Shown: positions 24,932 to 45,457 of the stretch, in pieces
How positions within the stretch are numbered: the stretch's first letter is position 1
How the letters are laid out: every line of letters begins with the position of its first letter
Assembly (NCBI RefSeq): GCF_000785105.2
Contig: NZ_CP018906.1
Location: 1,736,001-1,800,000 of the forward strand
Direction: 5' to 3'
DNA length: 64,000 nt
Source of the DNA: Lentilactobacillus curieae
Lineage (GTDB): Bacteria; Bacillota; Bacilli; Lactobacillales; Lactobacillaceae
Notes under the pieces: generated by a model
Told to the model about the DNA's origin: nothing
Databases searched by the model: none
The model's input: only the letters and a program-made list of their open reading frames with translations
Program-made: the position numbers and the translations under genes

Positions 24932-24960
24932 TTGACAACGATAAGAGTGACCCTTATACT
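24932..24960 (+). promoter_or_regulatory. Promoter of thrS
   Basis: Consensus TTGACA at 24932 and TATACT at 24955 are separated by exactly 17 bases. Transcription would start near 24967, just before the T-box stem I. Confidence 0.85.
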
Positions 24961-24966
24961 TTAATC

Positions 24967-25200
24967 GATATAGAAAAGACATGATTATTTCAACTCATCA
25001 CAGGGAGGGTTCTTCTAGCCTGGAAGAGAACCCGTTAAGATTGAAATGATTACCACTTTTCGACAATGGATTGCGGACAATGCTATCCCGGTTGGTAACC
25101 GTTAGCAGCCACTTGAGAGCTTTTATTTAATAAAGTAATATGGGTGGAACCGCGCTAAATGCGTCCCTGGTGTATATTTGTGCACCAGGGATTTTTTTGT
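24967..25200 (+). promoter_or_regulatory. T-box leader controlling thrS (specifier ACC)
   Basis: Stem I is closed by GAAAAG near 24973 and CTTTTC near 25056. The specifier ACC (Thr) lies at 25052-25054 on its 3' side. The T-box TGGGTGGAACCGCG is at 25141-25154, and its bulge TGGA would pair with a tRNA end of U73-CCA. The terminator stem TCCCTGGTG / CACCAGGGA at 25164-25191 is followed by seven T. Uncharged tRNA-Thr would stabilise the antiterminator and allow thrS expression. Confidence 0.93.
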
Positions 25201-25227: not shown

Positions 25228-27174
25228 ATGGCAGATTTATCATTTGAATTTCCAGATGGCAGCGTAAAGCAATTTGCTGACGCAGTGGTTGGTGAAGAAA
25301 TTGCAAAATCAATTTCAATTAGTCTTGCAAAGAAGGCAGTTGCCGCTAAAGTTGATGGCAAGCTTCACTCAGTAAATGAACCTTTACATAAGGGTGGTAA
25401 GCTTGAAATTATCACTAAGGACAGTGAAGAAGGATTAACTGTCTTAAGACAAACTGCAGCCCAGATCTTAAAGATGGCAATCAACCAAGATTTCACTAAC
25501 GTTAAGATTGGTGAAAGTGTTGCTGACGAAGACGGTTTTTACGTTGATACTGACAAGCCTGACACTCAAATCAGTGTTGATGAACTTGAAGGTTTATCAA
25601 AGACAATGAAAAAAATTGTTTCAGACAATTTAGAAATCAAGTCAGTTGAGTTATCTGTTGCTGATGCTAAGGCATTAGCAGGTGAAGATCCATATCAAAA
25701 TTCTTTGATTGATAAGTTAGCTGTCGATGGCCAAGTTCTCTACAACGAAATTGGCGATTTCAAGGGAATTGCCGAAGGTGCCGTTCTTCCTAAGACTGGT
25801 GCTGTTAAGATTTTCAAGTTACTTTCAGTAGCTGGTGCTTATTGGGAAGGTAAGTCATCTAACCCAATGCTTCAAAGAATTTATGCAACTGCATTTAACA
25901 AACAAGGTGAACTTGATGAAGATTTGAAGAAGCGTCAAGAAGCCCATGATCGTGATCACCGAGTTATCGGTAACCAGCTTGATTTATTCTTTGTTGACCC
26001 CAAGGTTGGTGCAGGTCTTCCTTACTGGATGCCAAACGGTGCAACAATTAGAAGAACAATCGAACGTTATATCATTGACCGTGAAGTTGCGAATGGTTAT
26101 AAGCACGTTTATACCCCAGTTCTGGCTAACTTAGACTTATACAAACAATCAGGTCACTGGGATCACTACCGTGAAGATATGTTCCCACCAATGGACATGG
26201 GTGATGGTGAAATGCTTGAATTACGTCCAATGAACTGTCCATCGCATATTCAAGTTTACAAGCATCACATTCGTTCATACCGTGAATTACCACTTAGAAT
26301 TGCTGAACTTGGTATGATGCACAGATACGAAAAATCAGGTGCGTTGTCAGGACTACAACGAGTTCGTGAAATGACTTTGAATGACGGTCATACATTTGTA
26401 ACTCTTGACCAAATTCAAGAAGAATTCCAAAAAATTCTTAAGTTGATGGTTTCTGTATACCACGATTTCGATATTAATGACTACACATTCCGTTTGAGTT
26501 ACCGTGATCCTCAAAACACTGAAAAGTACTTTGATGATGATGAGATGTGGAATCGTGCTCAAAGCATGTTAAAGAACGCCATGGATGAACTTGGATTGGA
26601 TTATGTAGAAGCTGAAGGTGAAGCCGCATTCTACGGTCCTAAGTTGGATGTTCAAACGAAGACTGCACTTGGTAACGAAGAAACTCTATCAACAATCCAA
26701 TTAGACTTCATGTTGCCAGAACGTTTTGACCTTCATTACATTGGAGAAGATGGTAAGGAACACCGTCCAGTTATGATTCACCGTGGCCTAGTTTCTACTA
26801 TGGAAAGATTTACTGCTTACCTAACTGAAATTTACAAAGGTGCATTCCCAACTTGGTTAGCACCACAACAAGTTAAAATTATTCCTGTTAGTGAACAAAA
26901 GCATGGTAAGTTTGCTCAGGAAATTGGTGAAAAGCTTCGTGGGTTTAACATTAGAGCTGATGTTGAAGAAAGACCTGAAAAGATGGGTTACTTGATTCGT
27001 GATGCCCAAACTCATAAGATTCCATATACCTTGGTCGTTGGTGACGAAGAAATGAACTCTGGTTCAGTTTCAGTACGTAAGTATGGTGAGGATGATTCTA
27101 AGTCAGAATCAGTGGATAGTTTTGTTGATGAAATTAGACACGATATTGACACTTACTCTAGAAATGAAGATTAA
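25228..27174 (+). CDS. thrS: Threonyl-tRNA synthetase with a degenerate editing site
   Basis: A 648-residue class II synthetase: TGS domain (1-62), editing (N2) domain (about 64-225), catalytic core and anticodon-binding domain. The catalytic zinc ligands are present (Cys in RPMNCPSH, His in NDGHTF, His in VMIHRG). In the editing domain the usual HxxxH is Q75 and Q79 (RQTAAQIL), and the usual Cys and His of the GDF segment are A182 and V186. All four residues known to form the post-transfer editing site are therefore replaced, so clearance of Ser-tRNA(Thr) is probably lost. The ATG follows AAAAGGAGAGA; in-frame codons further upstream lie in the terminator and are not coding. Confidence 0.95.
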
Positions 27175-27217: not shown

Positions 27218-27358
27218 AGTTCGAAAGAAAGCAAAGCAGAAGCAACCCGCTTCTCGCCTTAGTAAAATTGTTTACTGGGCATGATATCGAGTCAGGACTG
27301 ATCACTTGTGAACAGTCTTGTAATTGAGCGGGCGCACTGTGTGCCCGCTTTTTTCTGC
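27218..27358 (+). promoter_or_regulatory. infC operon leader with attenuator (L20-leader type)
   Basis: About 150 transcribed bases lie before infC. The last part is an intrinsic terminator: AGCGGGCGC pairs with the GTGCCCGCT region (27327-27349), followed by six T. A terminator placed before the first gene implies attenuation. In Bacillus this operon is repressed by ribosomal protein L20 binding such a leader; I infer the same here, but I did not derive the full alternative fold. Confidence 0.7.
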
Positions 27359-27386
27359 TTTTAATCAATTTTGGAGGTGAATTACC

Positions 27387-41727: not shown

Positions 41728-41970
41728 GAGTAAATGCGATATAGAAGAAGCAGTAAGTTATACCGATTATTCAGAGACTTCTGGGTTGGTGCGAACAGAG
41801 GAAATTGGTTAGCTGAATTCATCTTCTTAGCTGAAATTGGGAGTTCTAATAACGAAAAATTTTCCGGTTATCGCCGTTATCGATTTGAAGTGTTCGTCTA
41901 GTCTTTACTGGACGTGAACTAGGGTGGTACCGCGAGAAACCTCGTCCCTTTTTGGGATGAGGTTTTTTTG
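41728..41970 (+). promoter_or_regulatory. T-box leader controlling pheST (specifier TTC)
   Basis: Stem I is closed by AAGAAG near 41745 and CTTCTT near 41823; the specifier TTC (Phe) is at 41818-41820. The T-box AGGGTGGTACCGCG is at 41921-41934, and its bulge TGGT would pair with a tRNA end of A73-CCA. The terminator AAACCTCGTCCC / GGGATGAGGTTT at 41937-41965 is followed by a T run. Uncharged tRNA-Phe would permit readthrough. Confidence 0.93.
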
Positions 41971-43045: not shown

Positions 43046-45457
43046 TTGAAACTTTCATATAAATGGGTAAAAGAATATTTAGATTTAAACATTCCAGCTA
43101 AGGATCTTGCCGAAAAGATTGAAAGAACGGCGGTTGAAGTTGACTCGGTAAGCCGTTTAGCTGATGGATTAAAGAAAATTGTAACTGGTAAAGTTTTGAG
43201 TATGGAAAACCATCCAGATTCTGATCATTTGCACGTGTGCCAAGTTGACGTTGGTGAAGAAGAGACACTGCAAATCGTTTGTGGTGCGCCTAATGTGGCA
43301 GCTGGTCAAACTGTAATTGTTGCTTTGCCAGGTTCACGAATCGGTGGAAATGTAAAAATCAAGAAATCTAAAATGCGCGGTGTTCAATCGAATGGAATGA
43401 TTTGTGCACTCGATGAAATTGGCTTTTCTAAAGATGTTGTACCAAAGGAATGGGAAGATGGAATTTATGTATTTGATGATTCAGTTCCCGTTGGTGAGGA
43501 TGTATACAGCTATTTGGGAATGGATGACGATGTAATTGACCTTGATGTGACTCCTAATCGTGGAGATATGTTGAGTGTGTTGGGTACAGTTCATGATTTA
43601 GCTGCAATATATGATCAAAAACCAGAAATTAAACAGCCAACAGTAAGTGAAGATGCAGCAATCAAGGTAGAAGATGAACTTTCTGCATCTGCGGACCAAA
43701 CGCTTGCCCCCACATACAAACTGAGAGTAGTTAAGGGAGTTAAGATTGCTCCTAGTCCAGCTTGGTTACAGGTAAGGCTTTGGACATCTGGAATTAGACC
43801 AATTAATAATGTTGTTGATGTTACCAACTACATTCTCTTGAAGTACGGCCAACCTTTACATGCTTTCGATAGAAATAAAATCGATGGTAATATTAACGTT
43901 CGAGCTGCTAAGGATGGTGAGTCAATAACAACACTAGATGAAGAAGAACGTAAATTAGCAGCAGGTGACATTTTGATTACTGATGATAATAAGCCAGTTG
44001 CAATTGCAGGAATCATGGGTGGATTGGATTCTGAAATCAGTGATGATACTACTGATGTTGTAATTGAATCTGCAATTTTTGATTCAATTCAAATTCGGAA
44101 AACAGCAAGACGCCTTGTTCTTCACTCTGAAGCCTCACAACGATTTGAACGGGGAATCAATTACGATACTGTAGAAGATGCTGTAAATGAAGCTGCCCAA
44201 ATGATGGCTGAACTTGCAGGTGGTAAAGTTGCTACCGGTATTATTTCTGCCACTGACACTCCGCGAGAACTTCCAACGATTCACGTGTCAGATAAAAGTG
44301 TTAACAAAGTTCTGGGAACTGATTTGAGCTTAGCAGATGTTACAAACATTTTTGACCGGTTAGGTTTCACTTCAGTAAAAGATGGGGATGGATTAGATGT
44401 CACAATTACTGCTCGCCGTTGGGACATTGAAATTCCTGCTGATTTAAATGAAGAGGTAGCCAGAATTTACGGTTATGATAACCTACCAGTGACACTTCCA
44501 ACGGGGAGAATGGGGGTTGGTGCATTAACTGACACACAAAAGAATGAACGCGCCTTGAGAAACGTTTTAGAAGGGTTAGGCTTAACACAGGCCATCTCAT
44601 ACTCTCTAACTACGGAAGACAAAGCGAAAATGTTTTTAACTAGGAACTCATCTGAAACCAAATTGAGTTTTCCAATGACTCAAGATCATTCAGTACTTAG
44701 AATGAACTTACTATCAGGACTGCTTGATGATGTGGCTTACAATAAGGCTCGTAAAGTCGGCAACGTTGCCCTTTATGAATTTGGTCGAGTGTTCTTCAAA
44801 GATAGTGAAGAACAAGTTCGTCCTGAAGAAGTTAGCCACGTTGCCGGGGTGCTTTCAGGAAACCTGGTCGATAAGAGTTGGAGCCATCAGTCAGTGAAGG
44901 CTGACTTCTTTATGGTCAAGGGGATTGTTGAAAAACTAATCAAGAACTTTGCTCCGAATGGGGAAGTTGAGTTTGTAGCTGACAATTCAATCAAGGAAAT
45001 GCATCCAGGAAGAACTGCCAAGGTATTGGTCCATGGCAAAGAAGTTGGTTTTGTTGGTCAAATCCATCCGGTAACTGAAAAGCAATTTAAAATTAATGAT
45101 ACTTATGCTTTCGAGCTTGATTTTGATCTTTTGAATTCATTGCCTAAGAATGCTGATCAATTTAGTCCAATTTCTAAATTCCCAAGTATCAAACGTGATA
45201 TTGCGTTATTAGTTGACGATGCTATAAGTAACGATGATTTATTAAAGGTCATTTCAAAATGTGGTGGAGCATACCTTGCTAACATTGAATTGTTTGACCT
45301 TTATACCGGTGAAAATGTTGCTGACGGCAAGAAGTCTTTGGCTTACTCGCTTACTTTTGAGAATAAACGTGATACTCTTAAGGACGATGAAGTCAATGCG
45401 TCAATGGAAAAGATTAAAAAACACTTAACAGATGAATTAAATGCAGAAATTAGGTAG
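43046..45457 (+). CDS. pheT: Phenylalanyl-tRNA synthetase beta subunit
   Basis: An 803-residue subunit: N-terminal tRNA-binding OB domain (HPDSDHLHVCQVDVG), B3/B4 editing domain (GQPLHAFD, IAGIMGG, HSEASQRFERG), B5, a catalytic-like core and the C-terminal anticodon-binding domain (FPSIKRDIALLV). The editing-domain landmarks look intact, in contrast to thrS. The start is TTG at 43046, one base after the pheS stop, with AGAGGAG upstream. Confidence 0.97.
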   Translation: MKLSYKWVKEYLDLNIPAKDLAEKIERTAVEVDSVSRLADGLKKIVTGKVLSMENHPDSDHLHVCQVDVGEEETLQIVCGAPNVAAGQTVIVALPGSRIGGNVKIKKSKMRGVQSNGMICALDEIGFSKDVVPKEWEDGIYVFDDSVPVGEDVYSYLGMDDDVIDLDVTPNRGDMLSVLGTVHDLAAIYDQKPEIKQPTVSEDAAIKVEDELSASADQTLAPTYKLRVVKGVKIAPSPAWLQVRLWTSGIRPINNVVDVTNYILLKYGQPLHAFDRNKIDGNINVRAAKDGESITTLDEEERKLAAGDILITDDNKPVAIAGIMGGLDSEISDDTTDVVIESAIFDSIQIRKTARRLVLHSEASQRFERGINYDTVEDAVNEAAQMMAELAGGKVATGIISATDTPRELPTIHVSDKSVNKVLGTDLSLADVTNIFDRLGFTSVKDGDGLDVTITARRWDIEIPADLNEEVARIYGYDNLPVTLPTGRMGVGALTDTQKNERALRNVLEGLGLTQAISYSLTTEDKAKMFLTRNSSETKLSFPMTQDHSVLRMNLLSGLLDDVAYNKARKVGNVALYEFGRVFFKDSEEQVRPEEVSHVAGVLSGNLVDKSWSHQSVKADFFMVKGIVEKLIKNFAPNGEVEFVADNSIKEMHPGRTAKVLVHGKEVGFVGQIHPVTEKQFKINDTYAFELDFDLLNSLPKNADQFSPISKFPSIKRDIALLVDDAISNDDLLKVISKCGGAYLANIELFDLYTGENVADGKKSLAYSLTFENKRDTLKDDEVNASMEKIKKHLTDELNAEIR

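Follow-up and report, generated by a model that had tools for sequence, protein, structure and literature searches.

Loss of the editing residues, with the domain retained, in the threonyl-tRNA synthetase of Lentilactobacillus curieae and of much of the Lactobacillaceae

The threonyl-tRNA synthetase (ThrRS) of Lentilactobacillus curieae carries none of the four residues of the editing site in its N2 domain, and the site has also been lost in most of the Lactobacillaceae loci that we read. According to excerpts of PMC4041444, editing by E. coli ThrRS requires all four residues. The explanation that we favor, with a probability of about 0.7, is that N2 has become a catalytically dead scaffold for tRNA, that the loss is old, and that serine would be dealt with by selection, pre-transfer hydrolysis and tolerance.

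The window, that is the whole stretch of 64,000 nucleotides analyzed (positions 1,736,001 to 1,800,000 of contig NZ_CP018906.1), contains thrS on the + strand at 25228..27174; the coordinates of thrS features below refer to the window and to this strand. The reading frame, NCBIfam and Pfam identify a ThrRS of 648 residues made of N1/TGS, N2, the class II core and the anticodon-binding domain. The protein matches the NCBIfam model thrS TIGR00418 at 650 bits (cut-off 383.65), and Pfam recognizes the TGS, tRNA-synt_2b and HGTP_anticodon domains. The four editing positions were read from the DNA and aligned with the ThrRS of S. aureus (1nyq) and E. coli (1qf6), where they fall in the HxxxH, Cys and His columns. 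Q75 (codon CAA, 25450..25452) and Q79 (CAG, 25462..25464) occupy the places of the first and second His of HxxxH (E. coli H73 and H77), A182 (GCC, 25771..25773) that of the catalytic Cys (E. coli C182) and V186 (GTT, 25783..25785) the fourth site (E. coli H186). Codons and alignment together bear out the earlier note, which had claimed from the sequence that all four residues are lost: an editing-competent ThrRS is recognized by HxxxH plus the Cys and His of the CRGxH segment, and the window enzyme deviates at every one of these positions. The note had also considered that His or Cys might stand elsewhere in the domain. The N2 domain (residues 65-225, 25420..25902) holds neither, which excludes a shift of the catalytic residues to other positions in it. 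The catalytic zinc ligands, in agreement with the same note, are all present (C337, 26236..26238; H388, 26389..26391; H518, 26779..26781; coordinates computed from the residue numbers) and are invariant across all rows compared. Editing residues absent and synthetic site kept is the sequence pattern of the editing-deficient type.

A probable T-box leader of thrS was detected at 24960..25171 on the + strand (RF00230, 58.7 bits, E 2.1e-12 in the stretch searched), with a score below the Rfam gathering score of 93 bits. We take thrS to be flanked by a dnaI-like gene and infC. An L20 leader precedes infC at 27228-27362, and a further T-box leader lies at 41730-41952, upstream of the PheRS genes (beta chain frame 43046-45457).

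The alignment of N2 across the Lactobacillaceae, which had been proposed as a check, showed that the loss is much wider than the window genome. A search of 397 family genomes found a match in every one, of ThrRS strength except in the incomplete genomes G064 and G165. The four sites were read in 242 loci, some taken from these genomes and some from others. The 141 from Lactobacillaceae comprise 132 under 40 genus codes and 9 named ones; of the 101 from other bacteria, 30 come from eight further families within the order and 71 are named loci, a few of which (e.g. Enterococcus) belong to the same order. A state without H79, C182 and H186, called 'lost' here, was found in 107 of the 141 Lactobacillaceae loci and in 32 of the 40 genus codes; H75 is still present in 6 of the 107. 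Seven named loci share this state: UBA5807, Apilactobacillus micheneri, Secundilactobacillus folii, Companilactobacillus furfuricola, a Limosilactobacillus, Holzapfeliella floricola and Lactobacillus kimbladii. An altered state, HHDL, accounts for 28 loci (genus codes g2, g7, g8, g16, g18, g29 and g39, and two Weissella confusa). The complete set HHCH occurs within the family in a single genus, g19 (5/5 loci), and the one remaining locus, L265, is a partial gene without C182 and H186. Among the other bacteria, HHCH is seen in 100 of the 101 loci, two phytoplasmas included; in the last one, L184, the open frame is truncated, with the C and the H still visible. These rows are partly non-independent, the 107 'lost' loci corresponding to 104 distinct proteins and the 28 HHDL loci to 26. 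As in the window enzyme, N2 contains no His and no Cys in 20 of the 107 'lost' rows; the column where either residue is commonest over these rows is position 93, with a His in 34 of them.

Only one ThrRS was found in the window genome, with a single match below 1e-100. Among 100 other genomes of the family, G042 alone has two ThrRS genes (L237 and L249), both lacking N1 and both without editing residues. N1/TGS is wholly or mostly missing from a set of shorter enzymes of about 600-620 residues (L052, L054, L231, L237, L243, L245, L249, L251, L259 and L260), coming from genus codes g3, g6, g12 and g22, the last two each with a single such species.

The fold of N2 is predicted to be as in 1tje by the structure model of the window ThrRS, which fits the claim that the fold is kept. 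The comparison of the model with the PDB was good over N1-N2; residues 334-385 have a pLDDT below 50, and no pocket geometry was therefore taken from the model. The SAD profile PF07973 scored 19.9 bits on the window N2 with hmmscan (cut-off 24), 23.9 bits in the genome search and 25 bits when neighbors were included. Other pocket residues that are conserved in HHCH enzymes have also been replaced in the 'lost' rows: P98 and R183 are kept in 0%, Q175 and I100 in 7%, G97 in 17%, Y106 in 21% and K157 in 35%. F104, D107, G203, Y205 and R217 are still present in 100%.

Relative to the core, N2 has diverged 1.5-3 times faster in the 'lost' than in the HHCH enzymes. At a core distance p of about 0.15, the N2/core distance ratio is 4.60 for the 'lost' rows (1716 pairs) as compared to 2.07 for other Lactobacillales (106 pairs), 1.70 for named other bacteria (85 pairs) and 1.65 for HHDL rows (52 pairs). 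The excess is smaller at a core p of about 0.05, with ratios of 5.43, 3.66 and 3.40 for 'lost', other Lactobacillales and HHDL, respectively. Within the window's genus alone, the ratio is 3.99 at a core p of 0.10. In close pairs (72), dN(N2)/dS is about 0.10, showing that N2 is under purifying selection and hence is not decaying freely; the constraint is about as strong as in HHCH enzymes (0.096 vs 0.101). Together with the smaller excess at short range, this strong constraint could reflect an undiscovered function of the pocket.

Sequence comparison suggests that N2 is most likely a catalytically dead, tRNA-binding scaffold. The sole ThrRS of the cell would have an N2 stripped of the chemistry that hydrolyzes Ser-tRNA(Thr), and the domain would have been retained for another job, most likely gripping the acceptor stem of tRNA(Thr) during charging. 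Such a role is suggested by the retained fold, by the purifying selection and by published domain deletions; the excerpted parts of PMC4267643 describe the ThrRS editing domain as touching the acceptor stem, and charging as reduced once the domain is removed. Judged by sequence, the window enzyme has kept its charging function. Discrimination against serine would then come from initial selection combined with pre-transfer hydrolysis in the synthetic site, comparable to yeast mitochondrial ThrRS, with presumably some tolerance of serine at threonine codons. The same excerpts of PMC4267643 attribute pre-transfer editing to the yeast mitochondrial enzyme, which is without an editing domain, and state that in vitro this activity alone is insufficient and that the enzyme forms Ser-tRNA(Thr). 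The cell may therefore depend on tolerance or on a trans-acting factor as well. On the whole, the reading proposed in the earlier note finds partial support.

The age of the loss was examined with a quick maximum-likelihood tree of the core only (residues 225-640, 107 rows). Lactobacillaceae form one clade (SH-aLRT 99), within which 63 'lost' rows, L265 among them, also form one clade (SH-aLRT 95), and g19 is grouped with the HHDL rows (SH-aLRT 94). Because the 'lost' rows are one clade, the window genome owes its state to a deep ancestor, and this state is not peculiar to it. Most simply, editing would have been lost once, no later than the ancestor of the main lactobacillus clade, and not by recent decay in L. 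curieae. In AU tests, neither HHDL plus 'lost' as one clade (p 0.343) nor g19 plus 'lost' (p 0.337) was rejected, and the tree in which HHDL was constrained as one clade had a likelihood above that of the free tree. These tests leave the order of the HHDL change and of the full loss unfixed and are compatible with a first step that the two may share.

The HHDL rows (L064-L069, L071, L144, L162 and 19 others) are of the Leuconostoc/Weissella type. All 28 keep H75 and H79, and in all 28 Cys182 is replaced by Asp and His186 by Leu. At further positions, residue 173 is Ala and residue 192 Trp in 27 of 28, residue 180 is Glu in 23 and Asp in 5, and residue 178 is His in 23, the 5 rows of g29 having Tyr instead. 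Positions 178, 180 and 182 alternate along what is presumably a single strand and may thus face the same side. As judged from the N2/core distance ratio, N2 of these enzymes is as constrained as that of HHCH enzymes. The HHDL site therefore looks changed rather than dead, possibly metal-binding or carboxylate-based. A more far-reaching proposal, which we offer tentatively and do not expect to hold in full, is that the 'lost' clade has long lived without ThrRS proofreading, tolerating serine at threonine codons, and that its Leuconostoc/Weissella-type sister rebuilt the catalytic center without Cys, with His178 and Glu180 as new residues in 23 of 28 rows. If true, the family would hold three states of one proofreading site: intact in one genus, rebuilt, and dead.

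Clearance of Ser-tRNA(Thr) in trans, by an INS-family deacylase of the YbaK/EbsC type or by an AlaRS-type editing domain, would make N2 redundant; we regard this as unlikely. The earlier note had suggested a free-standing editing factor elsewhere in the genome. As a separate N2 or PF08915 domain, no such factor was found in 42 genomes of the family; all 42 carry an INS-family deacylase, whose substrate is putative. The search for a free-standing N2/SAD domain in the window genome matched only AlaRS and ThrRS. Over 50 genomes, 42 of them from the family, additional PF07973 matches were confined to a frame of 181 aa in G040 and one of 372 aa in G035; these matches, at G040:C19:261486-261614 and G035:C1:369287-369403, lie in frames that are neither ThrRS nor full-length AlaRS. 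With N2 of the HHCH genus as query, no stand-alone N2 was found in the 42 family genomes; besides ThrRS, the matches were to AlaRS-length frames, and weak ones of N1 type in G026 and G017. The archaeal-type ThrRS editing domain PF08915 was detected in 0 of the 42, window genome included, and the control was positive in three archaea.

At least one free-standing INS protein exists in each of the 42 family genomes and three in the window genome. The member universal in the family is of the YbaK/EbsC type and nearest to YbaK (locus L289:183-680, corresponding to G000:C1:1000800-1001600 in the window genome). It is present in 34 of the 34 lost-clade genomes read, with a GXXXP loop that reads HGAN(T/S)P in 33 and HGENTP in one; the HGANxP form differs from the GGxSP seen in E. 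coli YbaK and in 6 of 11 outgroup proteins. In the excerpts of PMC11295145, the INS relatives ProXp-ST1 and ProXp-ST2 hydrolyze Ser-tRNAs including tRNA(Thr), and the excerpted text of PMC6765224 describes AlaX proteins as acting on Ser-mischarged tRNA(Ala) or tRNA(Thr). The YbaK/EbsC-type protein could be a candidate for a factor that made the loss of ThrRS editing bearable. No gain is tied to the loss, however: HGANNP is found in g19, which is HHCH, in 7 HHDL genera and in the outgroup family f4, and outgroup f3 has HGANTP itself. Since f3 and f4 both keep HHCH, the loop does not mark the loss, and HGANTP was rejected as a strict mark of it. In addition, NCBIfam assigns the universal copy of the window genome to Cys-tRNA(Pro) deacylase (165.5 bits, cut-off 153.25), and E. 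coli YeaK (ProXp-ST1) matches, at 30 bits, one of the three copies of this genome, which is not the universal one.

The AlaRS of the window genome retains its editing motifs HxxxH and CxxxH, as the AlaRS-type variant of trans editing would require. HxxxH and CGGTH were present in 8 of 8 AlaRS loci checked, 7 of them from the family. PheRS and LeuRS were judged by profile score in 19 genomes. In the window genome, PheRS B3/B4 scores 244.5 bits and LeuRS CP1 225.5 bits, as compared to 206-241 and 224-231 bits, respectively, in four outgroup genomes. ProRS was covered through its INS match. A general loss of proofreading was rejected for AlaRS, PheRS and LeuRS, and among the four synthetases examined in the window genome the loss is confined to ThrRS. 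PheRS beta B3/B4 scores are low in two other genomes, G001 (L325, 148 bits) and G003 (L324, 186 bits), the other 17 ranging from 206 to 245 bits.

Alternatively, the synthetic site itself might reject serine well enough to make editing dispensable. Near the zinc Cys, S339 and E331 are present in all 140 Lactobacillaceae rows; the corresponding residues are H in 100 of 101 and V in 94 of 101 other rows. Since both are common to g19 as well, they predate the loss and could have made it possible. On the other hand, the two positions have no known contact with serine, and E. coli has Gly at the S339 position. The first shell of the threonine site, which we take to consist of R366, D386, H388, C337, Y469, Q491 and H518, is identical in all rows of all groups, so that no compensating change was seen there. 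Sharper selection as the whole explanation is in our opinion quite unlikely.

It is more improbable still that the N2 pocket is active through other residues, on a different substrate or by a different chemistry. N2 is indeed under purifying selection today, and Q79 recurs frequently, in 40 of 107 'lost' rows. Conservation would be expected of a new active site, and the lack of a common replacement at the other positions speaks against it: position 75 is Q in 30, N in 29, A in 19, D in 10 and E in 7 rows, position 182 is G in 44, A in 32, S in 21, E in 4 and V in 3, and position 186 is V in 42, L in 29, I in 12, Q in 9 and A in 4, with others at each. The window N2, moreover, lacks His and Cys altogether. 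Finally, an artefact of sequencing or alignment can be practically dismissed, since the same loss recurs across the 107 loci and 32 genus codes, with the four columns unambiguous in the solved-structure alignment, the closest sister genome (92% identical) reading QQSV, 23 of 23 loci of the genus lacking the set (a 24th, L026, ends before residue 124 and was left out of this count), and the near-uniform HHCH of other bacteria excluding chance.

A dead N2 kept as a scaffold has partial counterparts. Compared to the E. coli (1qf6, 1tje) and S. aureus (1nyq) enzymes, the window ThrRS has the same domain order, predicted fold and zinc ligands, but none of the four residues of their working N2. Archaeal ThrRS-cat paired with ThrRS-ed is likewise a ThrRS without cis editing; in contrast, the PF08915 domain of ThrRS-ed is absent from the 42 family genomes. 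Yeast mitochondrial ThrRS (MST1) lacks the whole domain, whereas in Lactobacillaceae N2 is present and constrained. Mycoplasma offers a natural loss of editing-domain function in bacterial synthetases, ThrRS included. The study of Li et al. 2011 reportedly concerns Mycoplasma. Mycoplasmas are parasites restricted to hosts, with reduced genomes and with several synthetases affected, whereas in Lactobacillaceae ThrRS alone of four is affected, in a large family with N2 kept and genomes of about 1.2-3.7 Mb (rounded, the least complete left out). The excerpts of PMC7373986, PMC4014445 and PMC9976931 describe editing-deficient ThrRS, PheRS and LeuRS in Mycoplasma, as the earlier note had mentioned for synthetases of mycoplasmas.

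Editing-deficient synthetases being known from Mycoplasma and yeast mitochondria, the kind of change is not new. What would be new is a loss of ThrRS editing residues across a family of free-living bacteria that keep the domain, beside altered and intact states. No description of it in Lactobacillaceae was found by title or abstract in searches of the openly licensed PMC literature (CC0, CC BY, CC BY-SA), and the excerpts of PMC9976931, PMC6765224, PMC13206607 and PMC4427996 make no mention of it in lactobacilli. Reviews, as far as excerpts of PMC7373986, PMC4014445, PMC9976931 and PMC4267643 go, discuss the loss of proofreading for host-restricted, genome-reduced bacteria, microsporidia and organelles.

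Overall, the loss spans 32 of the 40 sampled genus codes of a family of cultivable, for the most part harmless bacteria, in which the intact genus and the altered state provide natural controls. This makes it a testable question how a cell responds when Ser-tRNA(Thr) stays uncleared. For food and gut bacteria, it can now be asked how serine is kept from threonine positions, or whether it is kept from them at all. The finding also bears on the interpretation of Ser/Thr variants in the proteomes of starter cultures and probiotics.
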